A DNA stretch of 64,000 nt, from NCBI GenBank assembly GCA_944321945.1, contig CALUNE010000005.1:62001-126000 (forward strand). The letters run 5' to 3'. Shown here one piece after another: positions 18,494-43,889 of this stretch. This DNA comes from an uncultured Alistipes sp. Lineage in GTDB: Bacteria > Bacteroidota > Bacteroidia > Bacteroidales > Rikenellaceae. Within the stretch, counting starts at the first letter, position 1, and each line of letters opens with the position of its first letter. A program made the position numbers and the translations under genes. The notes beneath the pieces are model-generated. The model made no database searches and was not told where the DNA came from. It saw nothing but the letters and a program-made list of their open reading frames with translations.

Positions 18494-21400
18494 ATGAACA
18501 AATCTACCAAGCAAACCAATTCCGGAACGGGACGTTGCGGCCTTTTGCGGCACGTGTTTCTTGTTCTGGCGCTGTGTGCTCTGCCGGTTGCGGAGGTCTT
18601 GTCCGCACCTGTCGGGGCAACCCCTCCGGCCCAGGCCGGCAGGAACTATCGGATCACGGGATCCGTGGTCGATGCGGCGGGGGTTCCGATCATCGGGGCC
18701 AACGTCATCGTCGAAGGCACCACGACCGGTACGACGACCGATGTGAAGGGTGCATTTACGCTGGAGGTGCCTCTCAAGGGGACGATCCAGATCTCCTACC
18801 TGGGCTATCGCACGCAGACGGTCGCCCTCACCGGGCAGACCAATTATATGATCACCCTGCAGGAAAACGCCACGGCACTGCAGGATGTCGTTGTGGTCGG
18901 TTACGGTGTCCAGCGCAAGGAGAGCGTCGTGGGCGCCATCTCCCAGGTGAAGGGCGATGCACTGGTCGACGCCGGTGTTTCGAACATCACCAATGCCCTG
19001 GCCGGCAAACTCTCGGGCGTGACGACCATTCAGACTTCGGGCCAGCCCGGTCAGAACGACGCGGAGATTCTGATTCGCGGTGTTTCGAGTTTCAGCAACT
19101 CCAGTCCGCTGGTGCTGGTCGACGGTGTCGAGCGCGACTTCTCGACGATCGATCCGCAGGAGGTGGCCAACATTTCGGTGCTGAAGGATGCCTCGGCGAC
19201 GGCCGTCTTCGGAGCCAAGGGCGCCAACGGCGTCATCATCGTGACGACCAAGAGCGGCCAGGAGGGCAAACCCCGGATGGACTTCTCCTTCTCGACGGGT
19301 TTTGCCATGCCGATCAACACGCCCGAACATATCGACTCCTATCGGACGATGTCACTGATGAACGTGGCCAAGATGAACGACCAGCAGTTCTCGTCGCTGA
19401 CCTCGCAGGAGATCCTCAACGAGTACCGCAATCCCTCGACGCGGCTCAATTCGCTGCGTTATCCCGATGTCAACTGGCTCGACGAGATGACCGATTCGTT
19501 CGCCTCGACGATCAATGCCAACTTCAACATCCAGGGCGGTACGCGTTTCGTGAAGTATTTCGCCTCGGTGGGCTATGCGCACGAGGGTTCGATCTTCAAG
19601 GGCATTCAGGACGGGAAGGTCGATTCGCGTTACTACTACAACCGGTTCAATTTCCGCACCAACCTCGATTTCAACGTCACGCGCTCGACGATCGTTTCGT
19701 TCAAACTGGGCGGCAACGTCGGCATCAAGAACAAGCCGCAGCCGCAGGACGGCGACGACGGCATGTGGAAGTACATCTTCGGCAGCAGTACGGCCAAATA
19801 CCCGATGTACTATCCGTCATGGGTGCTTGAGGAGGTTCCCGATCTGGATTATCCCGACGCTTCGGGCGACCGTCTGATCAGCGAGGCCGACCAGACCACC
19901 GGCAACCCCTATTATCAGATGATGCGCGGCCGCTTCATCCAGCTGACCGACTCGAAGCTCTTCTCCGACATCATCATCAATCAGAAACTCGACTTCATCA
20001 CCAAGGGGCTTTCCGTGCAGGGCAAGGTCTCGTTGAGCACCTACTACAAATATACGACCCTGCGCACGGAATACGACCGTCCGGCGTGGTATCTGGACTT
20101 CGACAAGATCGGTACGGACGAGAATCCCTGGCGGCGGACCGGCGACAACGGCTATCTCTACGTGCCCAATCCGATGTACACGACGGCCGGCAACGCCCTG
20201 CAGGACGGCTACTATCTGGATCTCTACTACGATCTGTCGCTCAATTACAACCGCACGTTCGGACGGCACAACGTCACCGGACTCTTTCTCTTCAACCGTC
20301 AGGAGCAGGACAAGGGGTCGGACTTCCCGTACTACAACGAGGCGCTGGTGGCCCGCGTGACCTACGACTTCGCCCACAAGTATCTGGTCGAACTCAACAT
20401 GGGTTATACGGGTTCGGAGCGTTTCGCACCGGGCAACCGGTTCGGATTCTTCCCTTCGGGCGCCGTGGGTTGGGTCCTCTCCGAGGAGCGCTTCTTCGAG
20501 CCGCTGAAACCCTGGTTCAGCAAGTTCAAGATCCGTTATTCGCAGGGTCTGGTCGGCAGCGACTACGCCAACAACCGCTGGCTCTACATGAGCGAATATT
20601 CGAAGGACGGCAACGGATACATCGTCGAGGACAAGATCGCCAACAGTTCGGTGCAGTGGGAGCAGGCCATGAAGCGTGACCTGGGTATCGAGATGGGCTT
20701 CTTCAACGACGACCTGCATCTGACGGTCGATCTGTTCGACGAGAAGCGCACGAAGATGCTCATTTCGGTGGACAACACCACGCCGATGTGGATCGGCAAC
20801 ACCTCCAAGGAGCTGAACAAGGGTGAAATCAAGAAACACGGTCTGGAACTTGAACTCACCTATCGCCGGCAGCTCAACCGCGACTGGACGCTCTTCCTGG
20901 GCGGCAACTTCTCGTTCAACGAGAACCGCATCCTCTATACCGACGACCCGCTCTATGCACTGCCTCATCAACAGAAGATCGGTACGGCGCTGGGCGCCCA
21001 GCTGAGCGGCGCCTATCTGATCGGCAACGGCTATCTGACGTCGGTGGATGACATCCACAGCAACTTTTTGCCCGGATCGGTGAGCGACGTGGTGGTCGGC
21101 GACTACAAGTTCCTGGACTTCACGGCCGACGGCCAGATCGACAAGGATGACCTGGCCCGCATGGAGGGTTCGCTCTATCCGCCCATCGCCTATGCCTTCA
21201 ATGCGGGATTCAAGTGGAAGGGGCTCGACGTGAACATCCTCTTCCAGGGTTATGCCAAGAAGTGGGTCAATTTCGACCAGATGTACGAATGGGAGTTCTA
21301 CAAGGGCAACTACCGGACGCATCTTTCGTCGCTCGACTACTGGTCGCCGTCGAATCCCACGGGCAACCATGCCGCCGTACACTATTCGTCGTCGAACTTC

Positions 21401-21706
21401 GCCAACATGAGCTGGTCGGGTTACAACGAGAGCGCCACGACGGGCGGTTACAATGCCAAACTGGCGGGACGTTCGTGGCGGCGGGCCGACTTCCTGCGTC
21501 TGAAGGAGGTTTCGATCAGCTACACCTGGCGCGGACCGAAGATCAGCCAGGCTCTGGGCGTGGAGGCGTTGAAGGTCTATGCCACGGGCAACAACCTGCT
21601 GACCTTTACCGACCTGCTCGAGGGCGATCCCGAAAGCAAGTATCTCGTATGGGGCCAATACCCGCAGATGATGACCGTCAAGCTGGGTCTTCAGGTTTCG
21701 TTCTAA
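18494..21706 (+). CDS. SusC-type TonB-linked glycan transporter 1
   Basis: Outer-membrane transporter of 1070 residues that imports oligosaccharides with its SusD partner. After a signal peptide (cleavage near residue 36) comes a carboxypeptidase-like regulatory domain (about 53-135, ITGSVVDAAGVPIIGANV), then the SusC signature region DVVVVGYGVQRKESVVGAIS, the plug with ILIRGVSSFSNSSPLVLVDG and DASATAVFGAKGANGVI, and a 22-strand barrel ending MTVKLGLQVSF. I use the ATG at 18494, directly before the basic signal peptide N-region, rather than the in-frame start at 18452. susD1 follows after 18 bases. First gene of the PUL. Confidence 0.96.
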   Translation: MNKSTKQTNSGTGRCGLLRHVFLVLALCALPVAEVLSAPVGATPPAQAGRNYRITGSVVDAAGVPIIGANVIVEGTTTGTTTDVKGAFTLEVPLKGTIQISYLGYRTQTVALTGQTNYMITLQENATALQDVVVVGYGVQRKESVVGAISQVKGDALVDAGVSNITNALAGKLSGVTTIQTSGQPGQNDAEILIRGVSSFSNSSPLVLVDGVERDFSTIDPQEVANISVLKDASATAVFGAKGANGVIIVTTKSGQEGKPRMDFSFSTGFAMPINTPEHIDSYRTMSLMNVAKMNDQQFSSLTSQEILNEYRNPSTRLNSLRYPDVNWLDEMTDSFASTINANFNIQGGTRFVKYFASVGYAHEGSIFKGIQDGKVDSRYYYNRFNFRTNLDFNVTRSTIVSFKLGGNVGIKNKPQPQDGDDGMWKYIFGSSTAKYPMYYPSWVLEEVPDLDYPDASGDRLISEADQTTGNPYYQMMRGRFIQLTDSKLFSDIIINQKLDFITKGLSVQGKVSLSTYYKYTTLRTEYDRPAWYLDFDKIGTDENPWRRTGDNGYLYVPNPMYTTAGNALQDGYYLDLYYDLSLNYNRTFGRHNVTGLFLFNRQEQDKGSDFPYYNEALVARVTYDFAHKYLVELNMGYTGSERFAPGNRFGFFPSGAVGWVLSEERFFEPLKPWFSKFKIRYSQGLVGSDYANNRWLYMSEYSKDGNGYIVEDKIANSSVQWEQAMKRDLGIEMGFFNDDLHLTVDLFDEKRTKMLISVDNTTPMWIGNTSKELNKGEIKKHGLELELTYRRQLNRDWTLFLGGNFSFNENRILYTDDPLYALPHQQKIGTALGAQLSGAYLIGNGYLTSVDDIHSNFLPGSVSDVVVGDYKFLDFTADGQIDKDDLARMEGSLYPPIAYAFNAGFKWKGLDVNILFQGYAKKWVNFDQMYEWEFYKGNYRTHLSSLDYWSPSNPTGNHAAVHYSSSNFANMSWSGYNESATTGGYNAKLAGRSWRRADFLRLKEVSISYTWRGPKISQALGVEALKVYATGNNLLTFTDLLEGDPESKYLVWGQYPQMMTVKLGLQVSF

Positions 21707-21724
21707 TCAAAAATACAATCGACC

Positions 21725-23590
21725 ATGAATACCGGAAAACAGATATGGAAGCGACTTTTCGTCGGGACGATGCTGCTCTTTGCGGCTGCGGGGATGACCT
21801 CGTGTCTGGAGGAGTATCTGGACAAGGCGCCCGATGCCGGCCTTGACGAGAAGGAGGTTTTTTCGAAATATGCCAACTTCAAGAGCTATTTCTACGCGGT
21901 CTACAACGGAGCCAATTTCAACATCAAGGCCCACTATCCGCTGTGGTTCGCGGGCAACAACCAGAAATTCACGATGGAGGGTCTGACCGACATGTGCGAC
22001 ATGACGCGTATCCAGCGCTGCCAGCCCGGCAAGATGGGCGACGGTTCGCAGGTGACGTGGGCCGTGGGCTACAACTCGGATGCCGCCTCGAAGACGGCCA
22101 AGGTGCCCTATTCGTGGAAGGTGATCCGCGTCTGCAACATGGCTATCGAGAAGATCGACATGCTGCAGGATGCCACCGAACGCGAAAAGGAGGATCTGCT
22201 GGCCCAGGCCTATTTCGTGCGGGCCTACACCCACTTCGAGATGTTCCGCCTCTACGGTTCGCTGCCCTACATCGACAAGGTGCTGGGTTCGGAGGACGAG
22301 TGGGATCTTCCGCGGCTGACCGATTACGACTATTGCCAGCGGGTGGCTGCCGATTTCAAGACCGCGGCCGAACACTTCGACAAGGCGGGGCTGATGCGTC
22401 GTGACCCGGCTTCGGGTTCGGGCCACCTGGCCGCACCCGACCAGGACAAGCCCAACGGTGTGACGGCTCTGGCCATGCGGGGACGCGCACTGCTCTATGC
22501 GGCCAGTCCGTTGAGCAATCCCGGGTTGGACAAAACCCGCTGGGAAGAGGCTGCCGTGGCCAACTGGGAGGCCTATCAGGCCGCTTACGAGTATGGTTAC
22601 CGGCTGCTTTCGAAGGCCGACTATACGAAGAACTTCTACGGTACGAAATACACCAACGAGCAGCTTTGGGGCTATTCGACGGGCAGCACGACCAACTACA
22701 ACAACGAGCGTGTACAGGCCTTCGTTCCGTACTGCTTCTCGAACAACGGCTTCAGTTCGGGACAGTGCCCGACGCAGAATTTCGTCGACAAGTTCGAGAC
22801 GGCGGGCGGTTATCCGCTCAATACGCCCGAGCAGCGGGCCGCAGCCGAGGCGGCCGGCGAATACAACGAGCAGAATCCCTTCGTCAATCGCGATCCGCGG
22901 CTCGATTTCGTGGTGATCTACAACCAGAAGCCGCTGCGGGGCTACGGCAATGCGTCGCTCTATGTCAACGAGAACGGAAGTCTTCCGTCGGGATCGCTGC
23001 TCAAGAAGAAGGACAACAGCTCGGACGGCGTCTCGGAGACCTACTACTACGAGCAGAAACGCACGGGCAATCTCTCGAACAAGGGGGAGCAGAACGTGAT
23101 CCTCACCGATCCGATCATCCGTCTGGCCGAGGTGCTTCTCAACTATGCCGAGGCGGCGAACGAGGCCTGGGGTCCGACGGGCGCGGCTCCGGGAGCCGAC
23201 ATGACGGCGCTCGATGCCCTGAATGCGGTGCGGGCGCGTGTGGAGATGCCTCCCGTGCGCGACGAATACACGGCCTCGACCGAGACGCTGCGTCCGCGCA
23301 TCAAGAACGAACGCGCCGTGGAACTTTGCTTCGAGGGCTACCACTACTATTGCGACATCCGCCGCTGGAAGGATGCTCCGGAGTTGGGGCGTACGCGTCT
23401 GACGGGCATGCGGGTGACCAAACTCGCATCGGGCGCCACGACGGCCTATCCCACGGGATTCCGCTACGAGCGTTTCGAACTCCCCTCCAACCGGCAGATT
23501 GCCTGGAAAAACGACGGCATGTACTACATCCAGTTCCAGACGAGCGATCTGCTGAAGATGAAGAATTACATCCCCAATGAGGCGTGGTAG
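21725..23590 (+). CDS. SusD-like surface glycan-binding lipoprotein 1
   Basis: Forms the lid of the SusC1 transporter and captures glycan at the cell surface. 621 residues; lipobox MTSC (Cys near 27) followed by acidic residues, as in surface-exported lipoproteins. SusD hallmarks are visible: an N-terminal YLDKAPDAGL, TPR helices with AQAYFVRAYTHFEMFRLYG, and a C-terminal RIKNERAVELCFEGYHYYCDIRRW segment. It lies 18 bases after susC1, and the second SusC begins 25 bases after its stop. Confidence 0.95.
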   Translation: MNTGKQIWKRLFVGTMLLFAAAGMTSCLEEYLDKAPDAGLDEKEVFSKYANFKSYFYAVYNGANFNIKAHYPLWFAGNNQKFTMEGLTDMCDMTRIQRCQPGKMGDGSQVTWAVGYNSDAASKTAKVPYSWKVIRVCNMAIEKIDMLQDATEREKEDLLAQAYFVRAYTHFEMFRLYGSLPYIDKVLGSEDEWDLPRLTDYDYCQRVAADFKTAAEHFDKAGLMRRDPASGSGHLAAPDQDKPNGVTALAMRGRALLYAASPLSNPGLDKTRWEEAAVANWEAYQAAYEYGYRLLSKADYTKNFYGTKYTNEQLWGYSTGSTTNYNNERVQAFVPYCFSNNGFSSGQCPTQNFVDKFETAGGYPLNTPEQRAAAEAAGEYNEQNPFVNRDPRLDFVVIYNQKPLRGYGNASLYVNENGSLPSGSLLKKKDNSSDGVSETYYYEQKRTGNLSNKGEQNVILTDPIIRLAEVLLNYAEAANEAWGPTGAAPGADMTALDALNAVRARVEMPPVRDEYTASTETLRPRIKNERAVELCFEGYHYYCDIRRWKDAPELGRTRLTGMRVTKLASGATTAYPTGFRYERFELPSNRQIAWKNDGMYYIQFQTSDLLKMKNYIPNEAW

Positions 23591-23615
23591 TGTTAATCGT
23601 ATAAAGAGAACGTCT

Positions 23616-26600
23616 ATGAAATATATTGCATCATTGAAGTCGAAATACCGCACCTGGTCGTGCGTCCTGCTTGTCGCCCTGCTGGGGCTGGGCGGTACGG
23701 CGGTCGAGGCGCGGCCGGCCGACCCGAAACGGATCGATGTCGCCCTGACGATCGTCGACCGCAACGGTCGGGCCATCCCCGGGGCCGAGGTCTCGGTGAA
23801 CGAGGGCGGCCAGCACCTCACGGCCGACGAGAACGGCCGGATCCGTTTCACCGCGTCGGCCCGCGACATGGTCTCCATCTCGAAGGAGGGCTACACGCCG
23901 AGCCATCTGCTGGCCGGGGCGCTCGTCGATTCGAAGCAGGTGACCCTGTCGGACGAACAGCTGCTGGCCAGCGAGACCGACAATCTGCCGATGCCCTTCG
24001 GCATGCAGAAGAAACGCTGGTCGGTGGGCAGCACCATCGTCATCCGCGGCGAAGATCTCGAGAAATACTCCTCGACCGACATCCGCAACGCTCTGACGGC
24101 CATTGCCGCCGGCGTGGAGGTGACCGAGCGGTTCGGCGGTCCGGGGGTCAATCCGCTGGAACATATCGGACAGTACGGCGCCTCGACGCGCATCTCGGTC
24201 ACCTCGCGGGGCAATCAGATGATCTACATGGTCGACGACATCCCGGTCCAGATCGACGAGACTCCGCTCGATCCGCAGCAGATCGAATCGATCACCATCG
24301 TGCGCGACGTGCTGGAGAAGACCCTTTACGGACCTTCGGCGGCCAACGGTATCGTCTACATCCGCACCAAGCGCGGCAAATACAACGACCGCTATCTGAA
24401 CGTCGAGGTCGAAGGCGGTGTGAACACCGTCGACCGCATGCCGGAGTATGTCGGTGCGGCCGACTATGCACGGCTGAACAACATCGCCCGCAACAACAGC
24501 GGTCTGGAGATGCTCTATACGCGTGACGACGTGGCGGCCTATGCCCGCAACGACGCCTACGACCAGTGGCATCCGAGCGTGAACTTCCGCGACATGATGC
24601 TCAAGAACACGATGTACTACACGAAGGCCAACGTCTCGTCGGGCGGCGGCAACGACTACCTGCGCTACTTCGCCTATCTGGGCTACGCCGGCGAGGACGA
24701 CATCTACAAGATCGGTCCGCAGGCCGGATACAATCGTGTGAACATCAACGCCAACCTCGACATCAAGCTGCACCGCTACATCCGGGCGCGTTTCGGTCTG
24801 ATCTCGACGATGGGCATCCGCCGTTCGGCAAACTACGGCTACAGTTCGAACTATTCGTCGGAGGATGCCTCGTCGAACACGACCCTCGGCGTGACGGAGT
24901 TCCCCGACATCATCAGCGACATCCACACGACACCGGCGCTGTCGTTCCCGATCTATGCCAACAACGATCCGACGCTCGAATCGCCCTGGTATGCCGTCTC
25001 GACGCTCTACAAGCAGAACCCGATCGCCAACATCCTCGAGAACGGCGCCTATACGGAGACCATCCGCAAGGGGCTGGTCAACGTGGGTATCGACATCGAT
25101 CTGTCGTTCCTCACGCCGGGCCTCACGTCGATGTCCTACGGCGCCTACGATGCGACGAATCTCGTGCGTCTGGGTACGGCCGAGGATTATGCGGCCTACA
25201 TCCTCAACAAGGGAATCGACGAGAACGGTTACGATGCGATGATCCCCGAACAGAGCAGCAGCCACAGCGTCAAGGCCATGTCGCAGAAGACCCGCCTGCT
25301 GGACTACTTCTCCAACCGCTTCTATTTCGTGCAGAAGTTCGCCTACGACCGTACGTTCGGGCGTCATGCCGTGCAGGCGACGGCCTCCTATCTGATCACG
25401 AAACGTTCGCAGAAGTTCATCACCGAACACCGCCGCGAGATGGATTTCGTCCTCGGTGCCGGTTATGCCTACGACGGGCGTTACCTCGTGCAGGCCGCCT
25501 GCAACTGGCAGGGAACCTATTCGCTGCTGAACAACCGCTGGTCGACTTCGCCCTCCGTCGGGGTGGGGTGGATCCTCTCCGAGGAGCGTTTCATGCGTGA
25601 CGTGCGTGCGATCGACTTCCTGAAGCTGCGCGCCGAGTGGGGCCTGCTCCACTACGACAGTGCGACCTCGGCCAACCGCGACGTGGACAACTACAAGTGG
25701 GACAATTCGGGCCAGAAGTTCGGCCCGCACTCCAACAACCAGTGGTTCGGCAGTACGGTGAGCGATGCCGTTGACCGCCTCTACCCGCAGATGCTCGGCA
25801 ATCCGAACCTGCGTCTGGAGCGCCGCAAGGAGCTGACCGTCGGCATCGACGGCATGGCGTTCCGCCGCCGGCTGAACTTCTCGCTGAACTACTACAACAT
25901 CCTGCGCGACGGCCCGATCACCGAGTTGCAGAACATGCTGCCGCTTCTGGCCGGCGTATCGGGCGGCGCCCTGTGGATGAACTACGAGAAGACGCGCTAT
26001 CAGGGTTATGAACTCTCGCTGGGGTGGAACGACCGTCACGGCGACTTCTCCTACTCGATCAACGGATGGGCCTCGGCCCAGGCCTCGAAGGTGCTGCGCG
26101 CCGACGAACTCGACTACAAGGAGGCCTACCGCTCGAAAGTGGGGTATTCGGCCTCCTCGATCTGGGGTCTGCGCTGTCTCGGCCAGTTTGCCACGGACGA
26201 GGAGACGCAGCTCGTGCCGCAGCTCTTCGACGACGTGCTGCAGGCCGGCGACCTCAAGTACGAGGACATGAACGGCGACGGTCAGATCGACGACAACGAC
26301 TTCTGTGTGATCGGCAATTCGGTGCCGAAGCTGATCTACGGCGTGCATGTGAACCTCCGCTACCGGGACTTCGACCTCACGGTGACCGGTACGGGCCGCG
26401 CCTTCTACGACCTGGCTCTGACGAACGACTACTTCTGGAACGGCTGGGGCGACGGCAACTACTCGAAATACACGCTCGAGCATGCGGGCGATCCGACCCA
26501 TCCGCGCCTGACCTACAACAAGGTGAACAACAACTACAAGACCTCGACCTACTGGCTGACCGACGGCGGATTCTTCAAGATCCAGAGCCTCGAACTGGGC

Positions 26601-26783
26601 TACGAACTTCCGGTCAAGCGGTTGAGCCTGTCGACGATTCGTCGCATGCGGGTCTATCTGCGGGGCAACAACCTGTGCACCTTCTCGCGGATCAAGGATG
26701 TCGATCCCGAGGCCATGAGTTCGGGTCTGACGAACTATCCGCTCATGCGGACCTTCGTGGCCGGTATCAAGTTAACCTTCTAA
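23616..26783 (+). CDS. SusC-type TonB-linked glycan transporter 2, divergent
   Basis: 1055 residues with a signal peptide (about 1-34), a short Ig/carboxypeptidase-like domain (about 40-110, IDVALTIVDRNGRAIPGAEV), a plug (about 140-270) and a barrel ending in AGIKLTF. It differs from SusC1: the VVVVGYG signature is replaced by GSTIVIRGEDLEKYS, and the plug reads YMVDDIPVQIDETPL rather than VLVDG. It still has a dedicated SusD (gap 4 bases), so it is a second transporter of the same locus. The start at 23616 (MKYIASLKSKYR) is preferred over the in-frame ATG at 23577, which overlaps susD1. Confidence 0.93.
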   Translation: MKYIASLKSKYRTWSCVLLVALLGLGGTAVEARPADPKRIDVALTIVDRNGRAIPGAEVSVNEGGQHLTADENGRIRFTASARDMVSISKEGYTPSHLLAGALVDSKQVTLSDEQLLASETDNLPMPFGMQKKRWSVGSTIVIRGEDLEKYSSTDIRNALTAIAAGVEVTERFGGPGVNPLEHIGQYGASTRISVTSRGNQMIYMVDDIPVQIDETPLDPQQIESITIVRDVLEKTLYGPSAANGIVYIRTKRGKYNDRYLNVEVEGGVNTVDRMPEYVGAADYARLNNIARNNSGLEMLYTRDDVAAYARNDAYDQWHPSVNFRDMMLKNTMYYTKANVSSGGGNDYLRYFAYLGYAGEDDIYKIGPQAGYNRVNINANLDIKLHRYIRARFGLISTMGIRRSANYGYSSNYSSEDASSNTTLGVTEFPDIISDIHTTPALSFPIYANNDPTLESPWYAVSTLYKQNPIANILENGAYTETIRKGLVNVGIDIDLSFLTPGLTSMSYGAYDATNLVRLGTAEDYAAYILNKGIDENGYDAMIPEQSSSHSVKAMSQKTRLLDYFSNRFYFVQKFAYDRTFGRHAVQATASYLITKRSQKFITEHRREMDFVLGAGYAYDGRYLVQAACNWQGTYSLLNNRWSTSPSVGVGWILSEERFMRDVRAIDFLKLRAEWGLLHYDSATSANRDVDNYKWDNSGQKFGPHSNNQWFGSTVSDAVDRLYPQMLGNPNLRLERRKELTVGIDGMAFRRRLNFSLNYYNILRDGPITELQNMLPLLAGVSGGALWMNYEKTRYQGYELSLGWNDRHGDFSYSINGWASAQASKVLRADELDYKEAYRSKVGYSASSIWGLRCLGQFATDEETQLVPQLFDDVLQAGDLKYEDMNGDGQIDDNDFCVIGNSVPKLIYGVHVNLRYRDFDLTVTGTGRAFYDLALTNDYFWNGWGDGNYSKYTLEHAGDPTHPRLTYNKVNNNYKTSTYWLTDGGFFKIQSLELGYELPVKRLSLSTIRRMRVYLRGNNLCTFSRIKDVDPEAMSSGLTNYPLMRTFVAGIKLTF

Positions 26784-32570: not shown

Positions 32571-33923
32571 ATGAAAACGAGATTCAATATGTGCGCCGTA
32601 CTTTTGGGCGTGCTTCTGCTGGGGGGTTGCGAGGAGGCGGTCGAACCGCTCCACCACACGGCTCCGCAGGTGAACTTCCCGCTCGGGACCACGACGCTGA
32701 CGGCCACCGTCGGCGAGCCGGTCGAATTCCAGGCCGTCATCGAGCAGGGCGACCGGCTGACGTGCAGCTGGTATGTCGACGATCGGCTCGAGGCCTCGAC
32801 GCCGGCATTCACCTATGTATTCCGCACGCCGGGAACGTTCGACGTGCGCTTCGAGGCCCGCAACGGCGCGGGTACGGTCTCCAGAACATATGACGTGACG
32901 GTTTCGGATGTCCTGGAGATGTCGCTTTCGGTGGGCGATTCGACGCGCATCGAGCGTCTGCAGATGGACAATCTGCGGGTTATGGCCATCGTGACGGCCG
33001 GTTCGGACGTGCGGCACGAATGGTCGGTCGACGGGGCGGTCCTCTCCGACAAGGCCTATTTCGATTCGTTCGTGCTCTCCGAGGCCCGGGTCTACCGGGT
33101 CTCCTACCGGGGTGAGAATACGGCCGGCAGCTTCTCGAAGGCTTTCGACGTTCAGGTGCTGGAGCGCCCGTTGCAGATCGAGTTCTCGAATACCGACGCC
33201 TCGATCTCCTGCCAGCAGGGCGAGACGGTCTCCATCACGGCAACGGTGACCTTCGGCGGCACGGGCGTACAGCACGAATGGACCGTCGACGACGAGACGG
33301 TTTCGACCGATGCCGCATTCAGCCATGCCTTCTGGGGGGAGGGCCCCTTCACGATCGGGTATCGCGGTGTGAACGCCAAGGGCGAGACCGTAACCCGTCA
33401 GTGGACGGTCAACATCCTGGCTTCGGGTCTGCTGCTCGACGACTTTGAGGGCTACACGTCGCTGACGGCATGGTGGCGTACCGGCGAGAACGATCCGGGT
33501 GTGACGGTCGAGGACAACCCCAAGCCCTCGGGCATCAACACCAGTGCGAAGGTCATGCGCGACAAGGTGAACGGTACGGGCTCCACGTCGGGGTACTTCA
33601 CGCTGGAGACCTCGAAGATCCTCGAAGGCCGCGGCATCGACGTCTCGAAGTGTACGGGCATCCGCTTCAAGGTCTACCTGGGCAAGAACAAGTACTATCC
33701 GCGTGTGGACATCGGCGGTACGAAGTACGCTCCGGTCAGCGAACCGCAGTTCAAGGACGAGTGGGAGGTGCTCGAGTACCGGTTCCCGTTCAACCTGGAT
33801 CCGACGAAGATCATCCAGTTCCGGCCGCTGCTGCAGCAGAACGGCAGCAACATCGCCTCGGGAGCCGTGACCGAAACCAACACGCGCGAGGTCTATATCG
33901 ATGATATCGAATTCCTGGAGTAA
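32571..33923 (+). CDS. PKD-repeat surface lipoprotein with C-terminal glycan-binding-like domain, 1
   Basis: 450 residues; lipobox LGGC (Cys20). Three Ig/PKD-like repeats (about 30-115, 118-205, 207-292) each contain a V-x-H/S-x-W-x-V-D core, for example VQHEWTVDDETVS. They lead to a ~155-residue C-terminal domain that starts LLLDDFEGY and ends VYIDDIEFLE, the pattern of a jelly-roll carbohydrate-binding module. No catalytic residues are apparent, so a surface glycan-binding protein is the likely role. Its close relative follows after 19 bases. Confidence 0.78.
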   Translation: MKTRFNMCAVLLGVLLLGGCEEAVEPLHHTAPQVNFPLGTTTLTATVGEPVEFQAVIEQGDRLTCSWYVDDRLEASTPAFTYVFRTPGTFDVRFEARNGAGTVSRTYDVTVSDVLEMSLSVGDSTRIERLQMDNLRVMAIVTAGSDVRHEWSVDGAVLSDKAYFDSFVLSEARVYRVSYRGENTAGSFSKAFDVQVLERPLQIEFSNTDASISCQQGETVSITATVTFGGTGVQHEWTVDDETVSTDAAFSHAFWGEGPFTIGYRGVNAKGETVTRQWTVNILASGLLLDDFEGYTSLTAWWRTGENDPGVTVEDNPKPSGINTSAKVMRDKVNGTGSTSGYFTLETSKILEGRGIDVSKCTGIRFKVYLGKNKYYPRVDIGGTKYAPVSEPQFKDEWEVLEYRFPFNLDPTKIIQFRPLLQQNGSNIASGAVTETNTREVYIDDIEFLE

Positions 33924-35720: not shown

Positions 35721-37916
35721 ATGATGAAGAGAGCGATTGCTGTCAGTCTGTTGGTTGGGAGTGCATGCCTGTGCTCCTGCGCGGACCAACCCGTGTACAG
35801 GGACCCCGAGGCACCCGTGGAACGCCGCGTCGAGGATCTCCTGGCACGGATGACCCTCGAGGAGAAGGTGATGCAGGTCACCCAGTGGACCTATGGCAAG
35901 AACATGAATGTCAACAATGTGGAACAGGAGATGAAGGCCGTGAGCCCGATGATCGGATCGTTGCTCTACCGCAGCACGAGCGCCGCCTTCTACAACCAGG
36001 TGCAGCGCAAGGCCATCGAAGAGTCGCGATTGGGAATTCCGATCCTGTGCGGATTCGACGTGATTCACGGTTATCGGACGATCTTCCCGATTCCGCTGGG
36101 ACAGGCGTGTGCGTGGGATGTGGAGAAAACCGGGGAGTCGTGCCGGATAGCGGCGCGTGAATCACGTCTTTCGGGCGTGCATTGGACCTTTTCCCCGATG
36201 GTGGATGTGGCCCGCGACGCCCGTTGGGGCCGTGTCAGCGAGGGCTACGGCGAGGATCCCTATCTGAACGGTGTGATGGGTGTGGCCGCCGTGCGGGGCT
36301 ACCAGGGCGACGATCTTTCGAAGAGCGATGCGATGGCCGCCTGTCTGAAGCACTTCGTCGGATATGCCTACTCCGAGGGGGGACGCGACTATCACTATAC
36401 GGAGATTTCGCCGCAATCGCTCTGGGAGACGGCCCTGCCGCCTTTCGAGATGGGAGTGAAGGCCGGGGCCGCCACGGTGATGAGCGCCTTCAACGATATC
36501 AGCGGCATTCCGGCCTCGGCCAACCGCTATACGATGACCGAGATTCTGCGCGACCGGTGGGGGTTCGACGGCTTTGTCGTTTCGGACTGGAACGCCGTTG
36601 AACAGCTCAAGGCGCAGGGCGTGGCGGCCGACGATGCCGAGGCCTGTCTCAAGGCGTTGACGGCCGGTCTGGACATGGACATGGTGGACGATGTCTACCG
36701 GCGTTCGCTGCCGGGGTTGATAGCCGACGGAACTCTCCCGGAAGAGGTGCTCGACGAGGCTGTTCGACGCATCCTGCGGCTCAAGTTCCGCATGGGGCTC
36801 TTCGAGCATCCCTATGTCGAGGAGTTGCCCGATTCGGTGCGTTATCTGCGGCCCGAGGCACGGGCCGTGGCACGGGAGCTGGCGGCCGAGAGCATGGTGC
36901 TGCTCAAGAACAAGGAGGCGGTGCTTCCCGTTCGCGGCGAGGTGAAACGCATCGCCCTGTTGGGCCCGATGGCCGACAACCGGGTCGATCTGATGGGCTC
37001 GTGGTGGGGTCAGGGCGTGGCCGACGATGTGGTGACGATCCTCGAGGGGTTGCGGGCCGAATTCGCCGGCAAGGCCGAGATCGTCAGCTGTGCGGGATGC
37101 GGTTTCGACGGTGACGACCGCTCGCAGTTCGCCCGGGCCCGGGCTCTGGCCCGGCAGTCCGATCTGGTTGTCCTCTGCATGGGCGAGAAGCGCAACTGGA
37201 GTGGCGAGAACGCTTCGCGGGCCAGTCTGGCACTGCCGGCCATTCAGGAGGAGTTCATCCGAGAGATGGCTCGTACGGGACGTCCGACGGTGGTGCTGCT
37301 TTCGTCGGGCCGTCCGGTCGACGTCCGCGGTTTCGAGTCGGAGGTCGATGCGCTGATGGCCATCTGGCAGCCCGGAACCGAGGGCGGCAATGCCGTGGCA
37401 CAACTGCTTTCGGGCAAGGTCAATCCGTCGGGACGGCTGGCCATCACCTTCCCGCTGTGTGCCGAGCAGCAGCCCGTCTACTACAACCGTCGTCAGGCGG
37501 CGCGTCCGCGCTCGGGCCGTTATCAGAATCTGCCGCACGATCCGATGTACCCCTTCGGTTACGGACTGAGCTATACGACCTTTTCGTACGGAACGCTTCG
37601 TCTGGAGCGTACGACGCTGCACCGCGGCGAGCGGCTTGCGGCCGAGATCGAAGTGACCAACGATGGAACGTGCGACGGCAAGGAGACCGTACTGTGGTAT
37701 GTCTCGGATCCCGTGGCGAGCATCTCGCGGCCGATGCGGGAGCTCCGTCACTTCGAGAAACAGTCCATTCCGGCCGGTGAGAGCCGTGTGTTCCGTTTCG
37801 AGATCGATCCCGAACGCGACCTGTCGTTCCCGGATGCGACCGGCGAGCGGCACCTCGAAAACGGAACGTTCGTGCTGGAGGTCAACGGCCGGCGCGTCGA
37901 ATTCGAACTGATCTGA
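35721..37916 (+). CDS. GH3 beta-glycosidase, lipoprotein (BglX-like)
   Basis: 731-residue exo-acting hydrolase that removes beta-linked terminal sugars; GH3 members of this layout are mostly beta-glucosidases. The signal peptide ends in LCSC. Domains: (beta/alpha)8 barrel (about 35-370) with the nucleophile in GFVVSDW (Asp289), alpha/beta sandwich (about 385-600) with acid/base candidate Glu in NWSGENASR, and a C-terminal FnIII-like domain starting after YPFGYGLSYTTF. Other family marks are GFDVIHGYRTIFPIP, KHFVGY and the EGYGEDPYL segment. It opens the second operon of the PUL, 22 bases before the GH2 gene. The start may be the second ATG (35724). Confidence 0.94.
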   Translation: MMKRAIAVSLLVGSACLCSCADQPVYRDPEAPVERRVEDLLARMTLEEKVMQVTQWTYGKNMNVNNVEQEMKAVSPMIGSLLYRSTSAAFYNQVQRKAIEESRLGIPILCGFDVIHGYRTIFPIPLGQACAWDVEKTGESCRIAARESRLSGVHWTFSPMVDVARDARWGRVSEGYGEDPYLNGVMGVAAVRGYQGDDLSKSDAMAACLKHFVGYAYSEGGRDYHYTEISPQSLWETALPPFEMGVKAGAATVMSAFNDISGIPASANRYTMTEILRDRWGFDGFVVSDWNAVEQLKAQGVAADDAEACLKALTAGLDMDMVDDVYRRSLPGLIADGTLPEEVLDEAVRRILRLKFRMGLFEHPYVEELPDSVRYLRPEARAVARELAAESMVLLKNKEAVLPVRGEVKRIALLGPMADNRVDLMGSWWGQGVADDVVTILEGLRAEFAGKAEIVSCAGCGFDGDDRSQFARARALARQSDLVVLCMGEKRNWSGENASRASLALPAIQEEFIREMARTGRPTVVLLSSGRPVDVRGFESEVDALMAIWQPGTEGGNAVAQLLSGKVNPSGRLAITFPLCAEQQPVYYNRRQAARPRSGRYQNLPHDPMYPFGYGLSYTTFSYGTLRLERTTLHRGERLAAEIEVTNDGTCDGKETVLWYVSDPVASISRPMRELRHFEKQSIPAGESRVFRFEIDPERDLSFPDATGERHLENGTFVLEVNGRRVEFELI

Positions 37917-37938
37917 CAAACGATAAATCAAACCCGAA

Positions 37939-39771
37939 ATGAAACCTTTGTATTTGCTGATGTTTGCCGCCCTGGGTGCGGCGATGCCCGCCGTGGCGGG
38001 CGAGGAGGCTCCGGCTCCGCAGATCGTCAATGTGGACGACCGCGAGGGCTTTTCGCTCGACGGCGTGTGGCGGAGCATTGTCGATCCCTACGAGAACGGC
38101 TATTACGACTATCGTCGCAAACCGCTGAGCGACAAGGCGTCGTACTTCGCCGACGAGGACTTCGACAAGGACCGGACCAAACTTTTCGAGTACAATTTCA
38201 ACACGGACCGCACGCTGCTCGTCCCCGGTGACTGGAATACGCAGCGTCCGCAACTCTACTACTACGAGGGTACGGTCTGGTACCGTACGTTGTTCAACTA
38301 CCGGCCGCGGCCCGACCGCCGCACGTTCCTCTACTTCGGGGCGGCCAACTACGAGACGATCGTCGGTCTGAACGGTCACAAGATCGGCCGGCACGTGGGC
38401 GGATATACGCCCTTCAACTTCGAGATCACGGATCGTGTGGCCGAGGGTGAAAACTCGCTGGTGGTCAAGGTCGACAACAAGCGTCGGGCCGACGGAGTCC
38501 CGACCCTCAATTCCGACTGGTGGAACTACGGCGGACTGACGCGCAGCGTACGGATCGTCGAGACGCCGCTGACCTTCATCCGCGACTATTTCGTGCAGCT
38601 GAAGAAGGGTGACAACCGGACGATTGCGGGTTGGGTGCAACTCGACGGCGAGCAGGCCGAGCAGGAGGTCGTGGTGGAGATTCCCGAGCTGAAGATCGCC
38701 CGTCGGATCCGGACCGATGCCCGGGGCTATGCCTCCTTCGAGGTGAAGGCCTCGCCGACCTACTGGTCGCCGGAGAATCCCAGACTTTACGACGTTCGGA
38801 TCGTTGCCGAGACCGACACGGTGCATGACCGGATCGGATTCCGCACCATCGAGACCCGGGGGACGAAGATCCTGCTCAACGGACGGGAGATCTTCTGCCG
38901 CGGCGTTGCGATTCACGAGGAGATGCCCTACGCGACCAGCGGCCGAGCCTTCAGCGAGGAGCAGGACCGCATTCTGCTGGGATGGGCCAAGGAGATGGGC
39001 TGCAATTTCGTGCGTCTGGCCCACTATCCGCACAACGAGGCCATGGTGCGTGCGGCCGAGGAGATGGGGCTTCTGGTGTGGTCGGAGATCCCGGTCTACT
39101 GGACGATCCAGTGGGAGAACCCCGAGACCTATGCCAATGCCGAGGCGCAGCTGACCGACATGATTGCACGCGACAAGAACCGTGCGAACGTGGTTATCTG
39201 GTCGGTGGCCAACGAGACACCTCACGGCGAGGCGCGTCTGGAGTTTCTGCGCAAACTCATTACGCGGGCGAGAACGCTGGACCCGACGCGTCTGGTGAGT
39301 GCCGCCATGGAGAAGACCGCTCTGGAACCCGGCCTGCTGACCGTCAAGGATGATCTGGCCGACCTGGTCGACCTGATCAGCTTCAACCAGTATGTGGGAT
39401 GGTACGACGGTACGTCGGAGAAGTGCGACCGTGTGAACTGGACGTTCGATATCGAGAAGCCGGTCTTCATTTCGGAGTTCGGCGGCGGCGCGGTTTACGG
39501 TCGTCACGGCGCGCGGACCGAACGCTTCACCGAGGAGTACATGGAGGATCTCTACGAGCGCAGTGTGGCGATGCTCGAGCGGATGCCGGGTCTGGCCGGT
39601 GTGACGCCCTGGGTGCTGAAGGATTTCCGCTCGCCGCGGCGGCAGATGGTGGGTATCCAGGACGATTTCAACCGCAAGGGGCTCATTTCGGATCAGGGCG
39701 GACGCAAGAAGGCCTTCTTCGTGATGCAGAGGTGGTACGAGAAGCTCCGCAAGGAGTATGAGAACCGATAG
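37939..39771 (+). CDS. GH2 glycoside hydrolase with beta-glucuronidase-type N-x-K motif
   Basis: 610 residues with a signal peptide (about 1-21) and no lipobox, so periplasmic. Jelly-roll sugar-binding domain (about 65-215, WYRTLFNYRPRP, NSDWWNYGGLTR), Ig-like domain (about 220-315) and a complete TIM barrel. Acid/base Glu426 lies in WSVANETP and nucleophile Glu513 in FISEFGGG. Near the C-terminus FNRKGL gives Asn578-x-Lys580, the pair that contacts the glucuronate carboxylate in beta-glucuronidases. beta-Glucuronidase is therefore the favoured activity, with beta-galactosidase the alternative. It contrasts with the inactive GH2-like protein at 12739. Confidence 0.88.
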   Translation: MKPLYLLMFAALGAAMPAVAGEEAPAPQIVNVDDREGFSLDGVWRSIVDPYENGYYDYRRKPLSDKASYFADEDFDKDRTKLFEYNFNTDRTLLVPGDWNTQRPQLYYYEGTVWYRTLFNYRPRPDRRTFLYFGAANYETIVGLNGHKIGRHVGGYTPFNFEITDRVAEGENSLVVKVDNKRRADGVPTLNSDWWNYGGLTRSVRIVETPLTFIRDYFVQLKKGDNRTIAGWVQLDGEQAEQEVVVEIPELKIARRIRTDARGYASFEVKASPTYWSPENPRLYDVRIVAETDTVHDRIGFRTIETRGTKILLNGREIFCRGVAIHEEMPYATSGRAFSEEQDRILLGWAKEMGCNFVRLAHYPHNEAMVRAAEEMGLLVWSEIPVYWTIQWENPETYANAEAQLTDMIARDKNRANVVIWSVANETPHGEARLEFLRKLITRARTLDPTRLVSAAMEKTALEPGLLTVKDDLADLVDLISFNQYVGWYDGTSEKCDRVNWTFDIEKPVFISEFGGGAVYGRHGARTERFTEEYMEDLYERSVAMLERMPGLAGVTPWVLKDFRSPRRQMVGIQDDFNRKGLISDQGGRKKAFFVMQRWYEKLRKEYENR

Positions 39772-39779
39772 CCGATGAG

Positions 39780-39837: not shown

Positions 39838-39902
39838 TCGGATTCCGAAGTCGCATTTTTGGACGAAAAATCGTATCTTGCATATCGGAACCGCACCTTG
39901 TA

Positions 39903-42900
39903 ATGCGTAAACTATTCGTCATCATATGGATCTGCTGTTGGGGGGTTGGAGCCATGCCGGCCGGGGCAGAACCTCCTCAGGAGGCCGTATTCCGTCATTT
40001 GGGAATCAGCGAGGGGTTCAATCAGACCAACGTTACGGCCCTGTATCAGGATGAGACCGGAACGATCTGGACGGCGGGTATCGGCGGCGTCTCCCGATAT
40101 CGGGGGCTTCTACCCGAGGATCCCTTTCTCGAGCAGGATACGGTGTCGGTGCTGCAACCGATGAACGTCCGCGGAATCTACGGCGAGCAGCGTGGACGCA
40201 TCTATTTCTATCAGTTGCGCGACATCGTCGAATATGACATCCGCAAGGAGACCTTCCGCCAGCTTTTTACGGAACATCAGCTCGACGGCCGGCAGATTTC
40301 GGCCGTCTGCGTCCGTGACGGACGGGTTTATGCGGCCGCCGGCGACCGGATCCTCATCGCGGGTCCCGACGATCGGTATGAGGAGCTGCTGCTGCCCGCC
40401 ATGAGTGAGGTTTCGGCGCTGGTTCGTCTTTCGTCGGGCGAACTCTACGCGGGAACGCTCTATTCGGGCCTCTATCGGATTCTCGGCCCGGGCGAGGCGG
40501 AGTGTGTCCTGCGTACGGGGAGCAAGATCATCTCGCTGTTCGAGGACAGCCGGCACAACCTGTGGATCTGTACCCGCAGCGAAGGACTTTACCGGCTCGA
40601 TCCCCACGGCGGACTGAGCCGGTTTGCACACGATCCGGCGGATCGCGGATCGCTGGCCGACAACTACGTGCGCTGCATCTGCGAGGACGACGAGGGACGC
40701 CTCTGGATCGGCATGATGTTCGGACTGGACTGCTACGATCCCCGTACGGATGCCTTCTACCACTTCGGGCGTTCGGACAATCCGCTCAACGGCATGCGCA
40801 ATCTGACGGTCGAATGCATCATGAAGGACCGCCGGGGGGCCATCTGGTTCGGATCCTTCTATACGGGGGTCTCCTATTTCGATCCGGGCGAGGAGCCCTT
40901 TCATGTGATACCGGTCGACGGCGACGATACGACATGGACCATCGTCGCGGACGTGACCTCCGACAAGCGGGGCAACATCTGGGCCGCCACCTCCGACAAG
41001 GGCCTCTATTTCTACGACCGGATCCGGCGGCAGGGGCGGTTCTTCAACATGGGCAACAGTGCCATCCCGAGCGACAACGTCAAGCGTGTCTGCTACGAAG
41101 CCCGTCACGACCGTTTGTGGCTGGGGATGTTCATGGGCGGCGTCTGTGTCTATGACGTGGCCACGGGACGTTTCACGGGAATCCCGATGATCGACGAGAA
41201 CGGCCGTTCGGAGAATACCGAGATTGTCCACGATCTGGCCGTCGACGGCGAAATGCTCTACGCCGGAACCTATGCCGGCGTCTATCGGATCGACATGCGC
41301 AACGGCCGTTCGGAGAAGATCCTCAATCTGCCGCGTGTCTTCAATGTCCTGGTCGGCAACGGCCGGTTGTATGTCGTCACCGGTCAGACCCATTTCCGGG
41401 TTTTCCGTCTCGATTCGACGGGGCGTTGCGAACCCGAGTTCAGCCGCATCATCCGGGGCAACATGATCACATCGCTCTTCGGCGACAGCCGGGGCCGGGT
41501 GTGGGTCGGCACGACACGCAGCGGTGCGTTGCTTTACGAAACCGACCGGCAGGAGTTCCGGATCTTCGACAAGGCTTCGTGCGGGCTGGAGAGCAATCTC
41601 GTGAGTTCGATCGCCGAGACGGCCGACGGACGGATGCTTCTCGGTACGAATACGGGCTTTTCGCTGCTCGACGTGGCGCTTCGCCGGAGCGAGAACTACA
41701 ACACACAGGACGGTTTTCCGCTGTTGTCGCTCGAAAACGGCTGCCTGCGCCGCAGCGGGCAGGGTATGATTCTCTGTGGCGGGGTCGACGGCATCGTGGC
41801 CTTCGACGAACGGAAGGTGGGGGTTTCGGAGAAGCCGCTCCACATCTATTTCGCTTCGCTGGCCGTCAACGAACATACGGTTCATGCCGGTGACCGCACG
41901 GGCATCCTCCGCGAGGCGATGCCCTATACGGCCTCCATTTCGCTGCGTCACCGGCACAGTCTGGTCGACATCTTCCTCGGAACCGATAACTCGGGCAACT
42001 TCAACGTCCGCGACTACCAGTACAAACTCGAGGGTTTCGACGAAAACTGGCGGGTTCTCGACGGCCGCAACATCCGTTACATGAACCTGCCGCCGGGCCG
42101 TTACACGTTGTCGGTGCGCAACCGTCCCACGAAACTCCTGGGCGGGGATGCGCGTATCGATCTTGCTATCCGGGTCTATCCGCCCCTCTATGCGAGCTTC
42201 GGTGCCTATCTCTTCTACGTGCTGTTGATCATGGGCGGTACGGCACTCGTCTTCCGGGCCTACTATGCGCGCAAACAGCTCGAACAGTCGCTGGCCATGG
42301 AGCGCATGGAGAAGGAGCATCAGGAGCAGGTCACACAGTGGAAACTGGTCTTCTTCACCAATATTTCGCATGAATTCCGCACGCCGTTGACACTGATGCT
42401 CGGACAACTCGATCTGATCGTGCGGCAGCAGCTTCCGGAAGGGCTGCGCAATTATCTGATGAGTGTGCGGCGCAATGCGCTGCGGCTGCGCGATCTGGTC
42501 AACGAACTGATCGATTTCCGCCGGCAGGAGCAGGGCTACATGTCCCTGAAGGTCAGCCGGCAGGATCTGGTGGGTTATCTGCGCGACGTGTGCGACGCCT
42601 TTACGGAGTATGCCCGTATCAAGCAGATTGCGCTGGAGTACCGGCCCGCGATGGAGAACCTGCCGGTATGGTTTGATCCGGTTCAGCTGCAGAAGGTCTT
42701 CTACAACCTGATCAGCAACGCCTTCAAACATACCGACCGAGGCGGACGCATCGAGGTGACGCTCACCTCTTCCGACGATCGGGCGATCATTCAGGTCAGC
42801 GATACGGGTCACGGCATCGATCCGCAGCTGTTCGACACGATTTTCGAGCGGTTCTACCACCACGATGCCTCCTCGCAGGATACGGGTGTCGGCATCGGGC

Positions 42901-43889
42901 TGGCCTTGACGAAGGGAATCGTTGAACTTCACGGCGGCCGGATCACCGTCGAGAGCCGTGTCGGGGTGGGCTCGACCTTTACGGTCACACTCTGCTGCAA
43001 TCCCGATTTTACGGGACGGAGCAACGTCGAGGTGGTCGAGAATCCGGAGCCGGTTCATGCGCCGCAGCGGCCGGTTGCGGGTTTCGTTCCGGTCCCCGAA
43101 CAGATTCCGACTTCGGGTGATCTTCCGCAACTGCTGGTTGTGGAGGATGACGACGAACTGCGCGGCATGTTCGCCACGATCTTTTCGCAGTCGTACCGTG
43201 TGGCCCTGGCCGCCAATGGAGCCGAGGGGCTGCGGCGGGCACGGGAGTTGCAGCCCGATTTGATTGTCAGCGACGTGCTGATGCCCGAGATGTCGGGTAC
43301 GGAGATGTGCGCGGCGCTCAAGGGCGATTTCGCCACGTGCCACATCCCGATCATCCTGCTTACGGCCCTGGGTTCGGCCGAACAGCGTATTTCGGGTCTT
43401 GAGAGCGGTGCGGACGACTACGTGACCAAACCTTTCGACATGGATGTGCTGCTGGTCAAGTGCAACGGCATCGTACGCAACCGCCGGTTGTTGCAGCGCA
43501 AGTTCCTCGAGGCGCGCTCCGAACCCGTCGAGGCGGAAAAGCTGTCCAGCAATTCGATGGACGAGGCTTTCGTCGAGAAGGCGCTCAAGCTGATCGGCGA
43601 TCATCTCGACAGTGCCGACCTGGGAGTGCCGTTGCTCTGTCGCGAACTGGCCATGAGCCGTACGGCGCTTTTTTCCAAGATCAAGGGGGTGTTCGGCCAG
43701 ACTCCCGTCGAGTTGATTCAGAGCCTTCGTCTGCGGGAGGCGGCGCGGATGCTGCGTGAGAATCCCGAACTGAAGATCATCGAGATAGCTGACCGGGTGG
43801 GCATCAATTCGCTGCAATATTTCGGCAAGCTCTTCAAGACCCATTTCGGGTGTACCCCCTCGGAATTCCGGAGCCGCAGGGAGGCCTGA
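39903..43889 (+). CDS. Hybrid two-component system sensor kinase/response regulator (HTCS)
   Basis: 1328-residue one-protein signalling system in the inner membrane that senses a PUL breakdown product in the periplasm and activates the locus. Order: signal peptide (about 1-22), two-part beta-propeller built of repeats like GTIWTAGIGGVSRY, RLWIGMMFGLDCY and RVWVGTTRSGALLY (about 30-660), Y_Y_Y domain (about 690-760), one membrane helix (about 763-788), histidine kinase with His823 in FFTNISHEFRTPLTLM, an ATPase domain (VFYNLISNAFKHT, GVGIGLALTKGIVELHGG), receiver with phospho-Asp1124 in LIVSDVLMPEM, and an AraC helix-turn-helix (about 1225-1325). It is complete. It follows the GH2 gene by 131 bases and likely has its own promoter, which I could not define. 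Confidence 0.96.
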   Translation: MRKLFVIIWICCWGVGAMPAGAEPPQEAVFRHLGISEGFNQTNVTALYQDETGTIWTAGIGGVSRYRGLLPEDPFLEQDTVSVLQPMNVRGIYGEQRGRIYFYQLRDIVEYDIRKETFRQLFTEHQLDGRQISAVCVRDGRVYAAAGDRILIAGPDDRYEELLLPAMSEVSALVRLSSGELYAGTLYSGLYRILGPGEAECVLRTGSKIISLFEDSRHNLWICTRSEGLYRLDPHGGLSRFAHDPADRGSLADNYVRCICEDDEGRLWIGMMFGLDCYDPRTDAFYHFGRSDNPLNGMRNLTVECIMKDRRGAIWFGSFYTGVSYFDPGEEPFHVIPVDGDDTTWTIVADVTSDKRGNIWAATSDKGLYFYDRIRRQGRFFNMGNSAIPSDNVKRVCYEARHDRLWLGMFMGGVCVYDVATGRFTGIPMIDENGRSENTEIVHDLAVDGEMLYAGTYAGVYRIDMRNGRSEKILNLPRVFNVLVGNGRLYVVTGQTHFRVFRLDSTGRCEPEFSRIIRGNMITSLFGDSRGRVWVGTTRSGALLYETDRQEFRIFDKASCGLESNLVSSIAETADGRMLLGTNTGFSLLDVALRRSENYNTQDGFPLLSLENGCLRRSGQGMILCGGVDGIVAFDERKVGVSEKPLHIYFASLAVNEHTVHAGDRTGILREAMPYTASISLRHRHSLVDIFLGTDNSGNFNVRDYQYKLEGFDENWRVLDGRNIRYMNLPPGRYTLSVRNRPTKLLGGDARIDLAIRVYPPLYASFGAYLFYVLLIMGGTALVFRAYYARKQLEQSLAMERMEKEHQEQVTQWKLVFFTNISHEFRTPLTLMLGQLDLIVRQQLPEGLRNYLMSVRRNALRLRDLVNELIDFRRQEQGYMSLKVSRQDLVGYLRDVCDAFTEYARIKQIALEYRPAMENLPVWFDPVQLQKVFYNLISNAFKHTDRGGRIEVTLTSSDDRAIIQVSDTGHGIDPQLFDTIFERFYHHDASSQDTGVGIGLALTKGIVELHGGRITVESRVGVGSTFTVTLCCNPDFTGRSNVEVVENPEPVHAPQRPVAGFVPVPEQIPTSGDLPQLLVVEDDDELRGMFATIFSQSYRVALAANGAEGLRRARELQPDLIVSDVLMPEMSGTEMCAALKGDFATCHIPIILLTALGSAEQRISGLESGADDYVTKPFDMDVLLVKCNGIVRNRRLLQRKFLEARSEPVEAEKLSSNSMDEAFVEKALKLIGDHLDSADLGVPLLCRELAMSRTALFSKIKGVFGQTPVELIQSLRLREAARMLRENPELKIIEIADRVGINSLQYFGKLFKTHFGCTPSEFRSRREA

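Follow-up and report, generated by a model that had tools for sequence, protein, structure and literature searches.

A polysaccharide utilization locus with paired BpGH50-type enzymes in an uncultured Alistipes sp., a candidate system for a glucuronate-containing beta-glycan

The glycoside hydrolase family 50 (GH50) protein BpGH50 (BACPLE_01683, PDB 5T3B) comes from a polysaccharide utilization locus (PUL) of Bacteroides plebeius for algal polysaccharides (PMC8260779). The source reports no activity of BpGH50 on agarose or NeoDP4 (PMC8260779), and the protein is described as lacking a carbohydrate-binding module (CBM)-like domain (PMC8551122). Fsa16295Glu (GH50_3) and PaBglu50A (GH50_2) are beta-1,3-glucanases, i.e., GH50 enzymes that act mainly on a substrate other than agarose (PMC11079163). 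Residues R752 and E757 of the agarase Aga50D are among the active-site residues kept by Fsa16295Glu (PMC11079163). Here we describe a locus at positions 18494–43889 of a 64,000 nt window (the whole stretch of DNA analyzed) from an uncultured Alistipes sp., which encodes two GH50 proteins (GH50a and GH50b), a GH2, a GH3 and two SusC/SusD pairs. With moderate confidence we propose that it serves as a PUL whose target is a beta-linked polysaccharide with beta-D-glucuronic acid residues, which either alternate with a neutral hexose or form branches. This reading is drawn from comparative sequence data: the GH2 is nearest to a beta-glucuronidase and has the N-x-K motif, the glucuronate genes uxuA and uxuB are linked to some sister loci, and GH50 and GH2 co-occur in genomes.

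GH50a and GH50b are of the BpGH50 type and are nearer to 5T3B than to the agarases. Pfam gives no match for either, and their membership in the family is seen from homology to GH50 structures and the presence of the GH-A acid/base and nucleophile glutamates. The best solved match of both is 5t3b (scores in Table 1), vs agarase scores of at most 132.1 bits for GH50a and 96.7 bits for GH50b. The GH50b model has a mean predicted local distance difference test score (pLDDT) of 93, and Foldseek places 5t3b first with a template modeling (TM) score of 0.78 by query length, followed by agarases at 0.63–0.67. Residues E252 and E386 (the GH-A glutamates) and K456, in GH50b numbering, are invariant in 52 aligned relatives. 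K456 is part of an NKG sequence where the agarase has NVG, so that a valine stands at the aligned Aga50D position. When residues are counted from F742 in the 4bq2 alignment, the places of Aga50D R752 and E757 are taken by E445 and S450 in GH50b, and by L and S in GH50a. The marks of GH50_1 beta-agarases, R752/E757 and an N-terminal CBM-like domain, are thus not found in the window proteins, which are about 490 residues in length. GH50b has a lipobox and GH50a has none, so that the former is probably a surface enzyme and the latter probably periplasmic.

GH50 relatives were collected in one scan of public genomes, where the best 80 of 382 found were kept and gave 78 loci; the locus counts given here thus apply to the nearest relatives. 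The alignment used for the model and the tree comprises 52 of 86 sequences, and the tree was made by a quick method without bootstrap; in it, L008 and one copy from L069 form long branches. The GH50s of L031, L033, L045 and L052 cluster with the Bacteroidales GH50b clade. Their hosts are two Kiritimatiellae, one Lentisphaerae and one further bacterium, and the four loci are without Sus genes of the window type, a pattern that suggests horizontal transfer of these GH50s. A comparison with phage records gave no match to GH50b.

Two other GH50 genes are present on contig 1 of the same genome. One is in a second PUL (L009:3900-16107) with SusC, SusD, GH5, GH50 and GH3; its GH50 is of the agarase-like type, 640 residues long, and the PUL also has an unusual-looking metallophosphatase-GH16 fusion. 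The other (L008:2545-18947) is a third kind of GH50, about 31–33% identical to GH50b, whose cluster also encodes GH31, GH2-malectin, a SASA esterase, an FGGY kinase, an isomerase-like protein and a sugar transporter.

The arrangement of the window locus, recognized by similarity to its SusD2, DUF1735 or PKD proteins, is found in 22 of the 78 GH50 neighborhoods (L012–L023, L027–L030, L042, L046, L049 and L069–L071). Where the contig permits, these share the order SusC-SusD-SusC-SusD-DUF1735-GH50(s)-PKD(s), after which GH3, another GH50 and GH2 are variably present; this common order rules out a chance arrangement. The nearest named relative is L012 from an uncultured Alistipes, with a GH50b that is 87% identical. 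By eye, from translations, the genes 3' of its hybrid two-component system (HTCS) gene resemble their counterparts in the window, which encode glutamate dehydrogenase, a small secreted protein and NAD synthase. Sister loci differ from the window in GH50 copy number, and some gain uxuAB, a GH5, a fimbrillin-like protein or a lyase-like protein; the last, which has no NCBIfam match, we take to resemble PL38. L047 and L049 are two contigs of one Rikenellaceae genome and look like the ends of one window-type PUL broken in assembly. Any GH50 match is present in three of 61 genomes (36 of the same genus, 24 of the same order and the window's own), and the locus is therefore accessory. A described PUL with this gene set was not found in one open-licence library of papers.

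The GH2 has its best PDB match in 6d1n, beta-glucuronidase 1 of Bacteroides uniformis (932 bits), and the two best PDB sequences are both beta-glucuronidase 1 entries. We take the N-x-K carboxylate motif to be a mark of GH2 beta-glucuronidases. The closest NCBIfam family is PRK10150, a curated equivalog, but the score of 244.1 bits is far below the cut-off of 544 for the classical enzyme, and for this reason only the term beta-glucuronidase-type is used here. A GH2 with at least 45% identity is present in 13 of the 22 sister loci, or 14 if L013 is counted, where the rest of the cluster is on a separate contig (L142). In L027, L049 and L071 the contig stops before the place of the GH2. Genome-wide, the GH2 is present in 16 of 18 window-type genomes searched.

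Among 393 Bacteroidales genomes, GH50 (E ≤ 1e-70) is found in 11, GH2 (E ≤ 1e-150) in 38 and both in 8. GH2 is thus present in 8 of the 11 GH50-positive genomes vs 30 of the 382 others (Fisher p = 5e-7, or 3.7e-6 with the window's genome left out); these are raw counts, not corrected for genome size or kinship, and assume that both scans drew the same 393 genomes (the count is the same and the handles match). The GH2 (at least 45% identity) also occurs in 24 of the 78 GH50 loci, two of which are from Verrucomicrobia (L082 and L088), where GH50 and GH2 are adjacent. Six loci share another SusC/SusD, different from those of the window, and all have a GH10 just 5' of the GH50. Four of these (L051, L062, L064 and L065) read HTCS-SusC-SusD-GH10-GH50-GH3-GH2; in the other two, from Belliella, neither GH3 nor GH2 was seen. 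The GH10 of this second PUL type matches xylanases. The association of GH50 and GH2 with unrelated transporters is as expected of a functional unit.

The glucuronate branch includes uxuB and uxuA, which encode D-mannonate oxidoreductase and mannonate dehydratase. Of the 22 sister loci, four have both genes next to the PUL: L046, L016/L143, L018/L153 and L020/L154. In L018 and L020 they precede susC1 in the same direction, with the end of uxuA 24–26 bp away; in L046 they follow the GH2, and in L016 they follow the GH3, with a divergently oriented regulator-like gene in between. In all four linked loci, UxuA scores above the PF03786 cut-off. UxuB of L046 and L143 is above the NCBIfam cut-off, and the other two were assigned by 67–68% identity to UxuB of L046. 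uxuAB is also about 5 kb from the GH50 in L035 and L053. The chance of the uxuA linkage is P ~1e-3, a rough value in which related genomes are treated as independent. UxuA is present in 23 of 28 genomes with window-type or related loci, where one match is a fragment of 41 residues.

A number of results weigh against the glucuronate reading. GH2 is found without GH50 in 30 of the 38 GH2-positive genomes, and 3 of the 11 GH50-positive genomes have no GH2. For 20 of the 42 GH2 places the surrounding region was compared; none of these regions gave a GH50 match, and their contexts are mixed and share no polymer. The GH2 clade thus serves other glycans too. Five of the 22 sister loci (L014, L015, L023, L030 and L042) have no GH2 of at least 45% identity although their contigs continue (L014 does carry a GH2, of 28% identity), and a GH3 of at least 50% identity is in only 8 of the 22, with L013/L142 counted. 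Longer flanks, seen for 9 of the 22, contain uxuAB in three and none in six on the sides seen. UxuA has no match in 4 of 18 window-type genomes searched (those of L019, L021, L022 and L028, of unstated completeness). uxuAB is not in the window itself, and UxuA, UxaC and the altronate-dehydratase family were not found in the window's own genome, which is 2.23 Mb in 24 contigs and 77.65% complete. The absence of uxuA there is likely due to an assembly gap. In the nearest relative, the stretch neighboring uxuB-uxuA has an 89% match in the window's genome, on a contig of 3,870 bases that ends about 7 kb short of the uxuB-uxuA place. Another gene of the relative, some 2.5 kb away from uxuB, has a match of 70–75% on contig 2 of the window's genome as well, so that the gene order near uxuB may differ there.

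Gene content, conservation, the co-occurrence of GH50 with GH2 and the uxuAB linkage of some sister loci are observed; the following scheme is our inference as to where each enzyme sits, when it acts, which neutral sugar is present and what each specificity is. GH50b at the surface would catch and cut the chain with help from the binding proteins (DUF1735-like and PKD), and the two SusCD pairs would take in different fragments. GH50a would trim imported fragments in the periplasm, where the GH2 would take off non-reducing beta-glucuronate, and the GH3 would cleave leftover beta-glucosides. This would parallel the logic of agarose degradation, in which GH50 is followed by GH117, except that a glucuronidase would stand where the anhydrogalactosidase acts. 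The GH3 argues for glucose as the neutral sugar, yet GH3 is missing from several sister loci. It is possible, though doubtful, that the BpGH50-type clade represents a new activity, i.e., retaining hydrolases that act on a polymer of repeating glucuronate and hexose and cut a beta-linkage next to the glucuronate, with K456 reading the carboxylate. If this is true, the locus would be the first described degradation system for such a polymer, kept across many Bacteroidales, and the GH50 alone would have passed to Kiritimatiellota and Lentisphaerota.

An alternative is a PUL for beta-1,3- or mixed-linkage glucan, where the GH50s would be beta-glucanases, the GH3 a beta-glucosidase, and the GH2 would trim an occasional uronate. 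GH50 beta-1,3-glucanases are known in PaBglu50A and Fsa16295Glu (PMC11079163), the GH3 matches beta-glucosidases, another GH50 in this genome is clustered with GH5, GH16 and GH3, and the PKD fold search lists, as a weak match, a surface glycan-binding protein (SGBP) for mixed-linkage glucan. However, no locus protein matches GH16, and the window GH50s are without the R752/E757 equivalents that Fsa16295Glu is described as keeping. In five sister loci (L019, L021, L022, L028 and L046) GH50 and GH2 are present with no GH3 in the fetched stretch, the converse of the pattern that a glucan locus would require. This reading does not account for the uxuAB linkage, and we regard a glucan PUL as unlikely.

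Slightly less likely again is a plant arabinogalactan or gum PUL, in which the GH50s would act on glucuronate-capped beta-galactan side chains once arabinose had been removed by other loci. Terminal beta-glucuronate is typical in arabinogalactan proteins. The record titles of 7 of the 22 sister loci name a herbivore as host (horse, sheep, roe deer twice, yak, and water buffalo twice), the other 15 titles give no host, and a GH50 beta-galactosidase, VadG925, is cited in PMC11079163. On the other hand, arabinosidase families and GH35 are unmatched in the locus, and the GH10 of the second PUL type is unsuited to a galactan.

The uronate could be beta-D-galacturonate and not glucuronate, but this is improbable. 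7vqm, a GH2 named for beta-galacturonate, is also a strong match and the third-best distinct PDB sequence, a point that counts against glucuronate, as does the lack of a UxuA match in four sister genomes; against it, the two best matches are beta-glucuronidase 1 entries, and by general pathway knowledge uxuB and uxuA serve the glucuronate branch. A horizontally acquired agar or porphyran locus, in spite of the GH50 fold and distant agarase similarity, is very improbable and was rejected, with GH16, GH86 and sulfatase unmatched in the locus proteins and GH50s of the BpGH50 type (490 vs ~750 residues, Aga50D R752/E757 replaced), whose namesake is without a CBM-like domain (PMC8551122) and reportedly shows no activity toward agarose or NeoDP4 (PMC8260779). 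A host glycosaminoglycan was also rejected, as lyase, sulfatase and hexosaminidase families are unmatched in the 12 proteins.

A polysaccharide containing beta-D-glucuronic acid remains the favored substrate, and the genes proposed to act on it are listed in Table 1. All 12 are on the + strand, with intergenic gaps of no more than about 130 bases or short overlaps. With susC next to susD, and with enzymes for glycans and a regulator of its own encoded alongside, the locus qualifies as a SusCD-type PUL.

Table 1. Genes of the locus, with positions in the window
Gene product	Positions	Strand	Evidence
SusC1, TonB-dependent transporter	18494..21706	+	TIGR04056 E 1.2e-245; ATG 18494
SusD1 lipoprotein	21725..23590	+	PF07980 E 4.9e-39; lipobox-like N-terminus
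SusC2	23577..26783	+	TIGR04056 E 4.9e-152; 24% identity with SusC1
SusD2 lipoprotein	26788..28605	+	PF07980 E 2.6e-41; lipobox-like N-terminus
DUF1735/BT_3987-like lipoprotein	28628..29620	+	PF08522 24.5 bits (just below cut-off 25.9); LTSC lipobox
GH50a	29635..31074	+	5t3b E 7.2e-65, 222.6 bits; signal peptide without lipobox
GH50b lipoprotein	31086..32558	+	5t3b E 7.4e-59, 202.7 bits; 56% identity with GH50a
PKD lipoprotein 1	32571..33923	+	PF00801 E 3.9e-16; PKD/Ig-like domains and C-terminal beta-rich part
PKD lipoprotein 2	33943..35637	+	PF00801 E 9e-24, 3 stretches
GH3, beta-glucosidase-type	35721..37916	+	PF00933 E 1.9e-66; best PDB 3u48 E 1.5e-169
GH2, beta-glucuronidase-type	37939..39771	+	6d1n E 9.5e-280; NRK motif, residue 578
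HTCS regulator	39903..43889	+	Domains: propeller, Y_Y_Y, HisKA, HATPase, receiver, HTH_18

An earlier note on this DNA had named the same gene set, and all of it is present. The two SusCD pairs, called unrelated there, are so only in the sense of distant paralogues (SusD1 and SusD2 are 25% identical). The N-x-K motif it pointed out in the GH2 is the NRK of Table 1. The absence of sulfatase, lyase, GH16 and GH86 also holds, with no match to these families in any of the 12 locus proteins; arabinosidase families, GH35 and hexosaminidase are likewise unmatched among the 12. The agarolytic marks, a GH16/GH86 endo-enzyme and GH117, were not found with Pfam on 12 proteins and NCBIfam on 10. This, together with the BpGH50-type GH50s, agrees with the view in the note that a classical agar or porphyran PUL is unlikely.

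The SusC1 frame stays open 5' of its ATG, back to TTG 18452. The DUF1735-like lipoprotein is kept in 20 of the 78 related loci despite its sub-threshold Pfam score, and is a probable surface glycan-binding protein or spacer; DUF1735 has been described as a likely membrane-bound spacer (PMC11216935, 2024). PKD lipoprotein 1 is a probable glycan-binding protein. Its model has a pLDDT of 90 and a predicted TM score of 0.50, which leaves the domain arrangement unsure, and the fold search gives chiefly Ig-domain matches that point to no ligand. Several PDB matches of the GH3 ranked after 3u48 bear the name beta-glucosidase.

Upstream of the locus are a class II tRNA synthetase (PF00152, 14180–15568) and rpoN (15875–17299), and a 221-residue frame between rpoN and the locus has no family match. 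Downstream is glutamate dehydrogenase on the – strand. The G+C content is 60.5% in the locus vs 61.6–62.4% in the flanks. A LacZ-like GH2 frame of 550 residues at 12739–14391 (–) covers only the first half of long GH2 families; the profile match runs to about position 480 of 1,007, and the frame stops within the barrel. It may be a beta-galactosidase that has been truncated or has decayed, or else an unusual short protein. Two proteins with a putative carbohydrate metabolism domain (PCMD) are encoded at 58768–60522 (–) and 62397–63896 (–).

The general description in the earlier note, a PUL with no substrate assigned, is borne out as a SusCD-type PUL, and the substrate given above is a proposal from sequence. 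Among the sugars it considered for a beta-linked glycan, glucuronate is supported by the GH2 and the uxuAB linkage, while galactose is possible but is not singled out. Its statement that the combination could not be matched to a known locus stands in that no characterized PUL of this set was found in one open-licence library of papers, but the locus is no isolated oddity: it recurs in 22 of the 78 neighborhoods. The term agarase-like fits the fold and family and not the likely activity, in view of the reported inactivity of the BpGH50 relative on agarose (PMC8260779).

BpGH50 has a crystal structure, but reportedly it acts on neither agarose nor NeoDP4 (PMC8260779); the locus gives its clade a recurring genetic setting. 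It names partners that can be assayed together with GH50, i.e., a beta-glucuronidase-type GH2, a beta-glucosidase-type GH3 and glucuronate catabolism, and makes the function of gut GH50s testable. It is also a caution against the annotation "agarase" for GH50 in gut and rumen genomes.

In comparison with known systems, the window GH50s have the GH50 barrel and catalytic residues in common with the agarases Aga50D, AgWH50C and PfGH50B, but these are about 750 residues long, and Aga50D R752/E757 are replaced in the window proteins. Fsa16295Glu retains the equivalents of these two residues (PMC11079163), and the window GH50s do not have them. The GH2 and B. uniformis beta-glucuronidase 1 (6D1N) align over residues 14–607, with the NRK region included (DFNRKGL in 6d1n). 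With BpGH50 the window GH50s share the length class, the GH-A glutamates and the NKG motif. Unlike BpGH50, they are paired, and are in a sulfatase-free locus with a beta-glucuronidase-type GH2.

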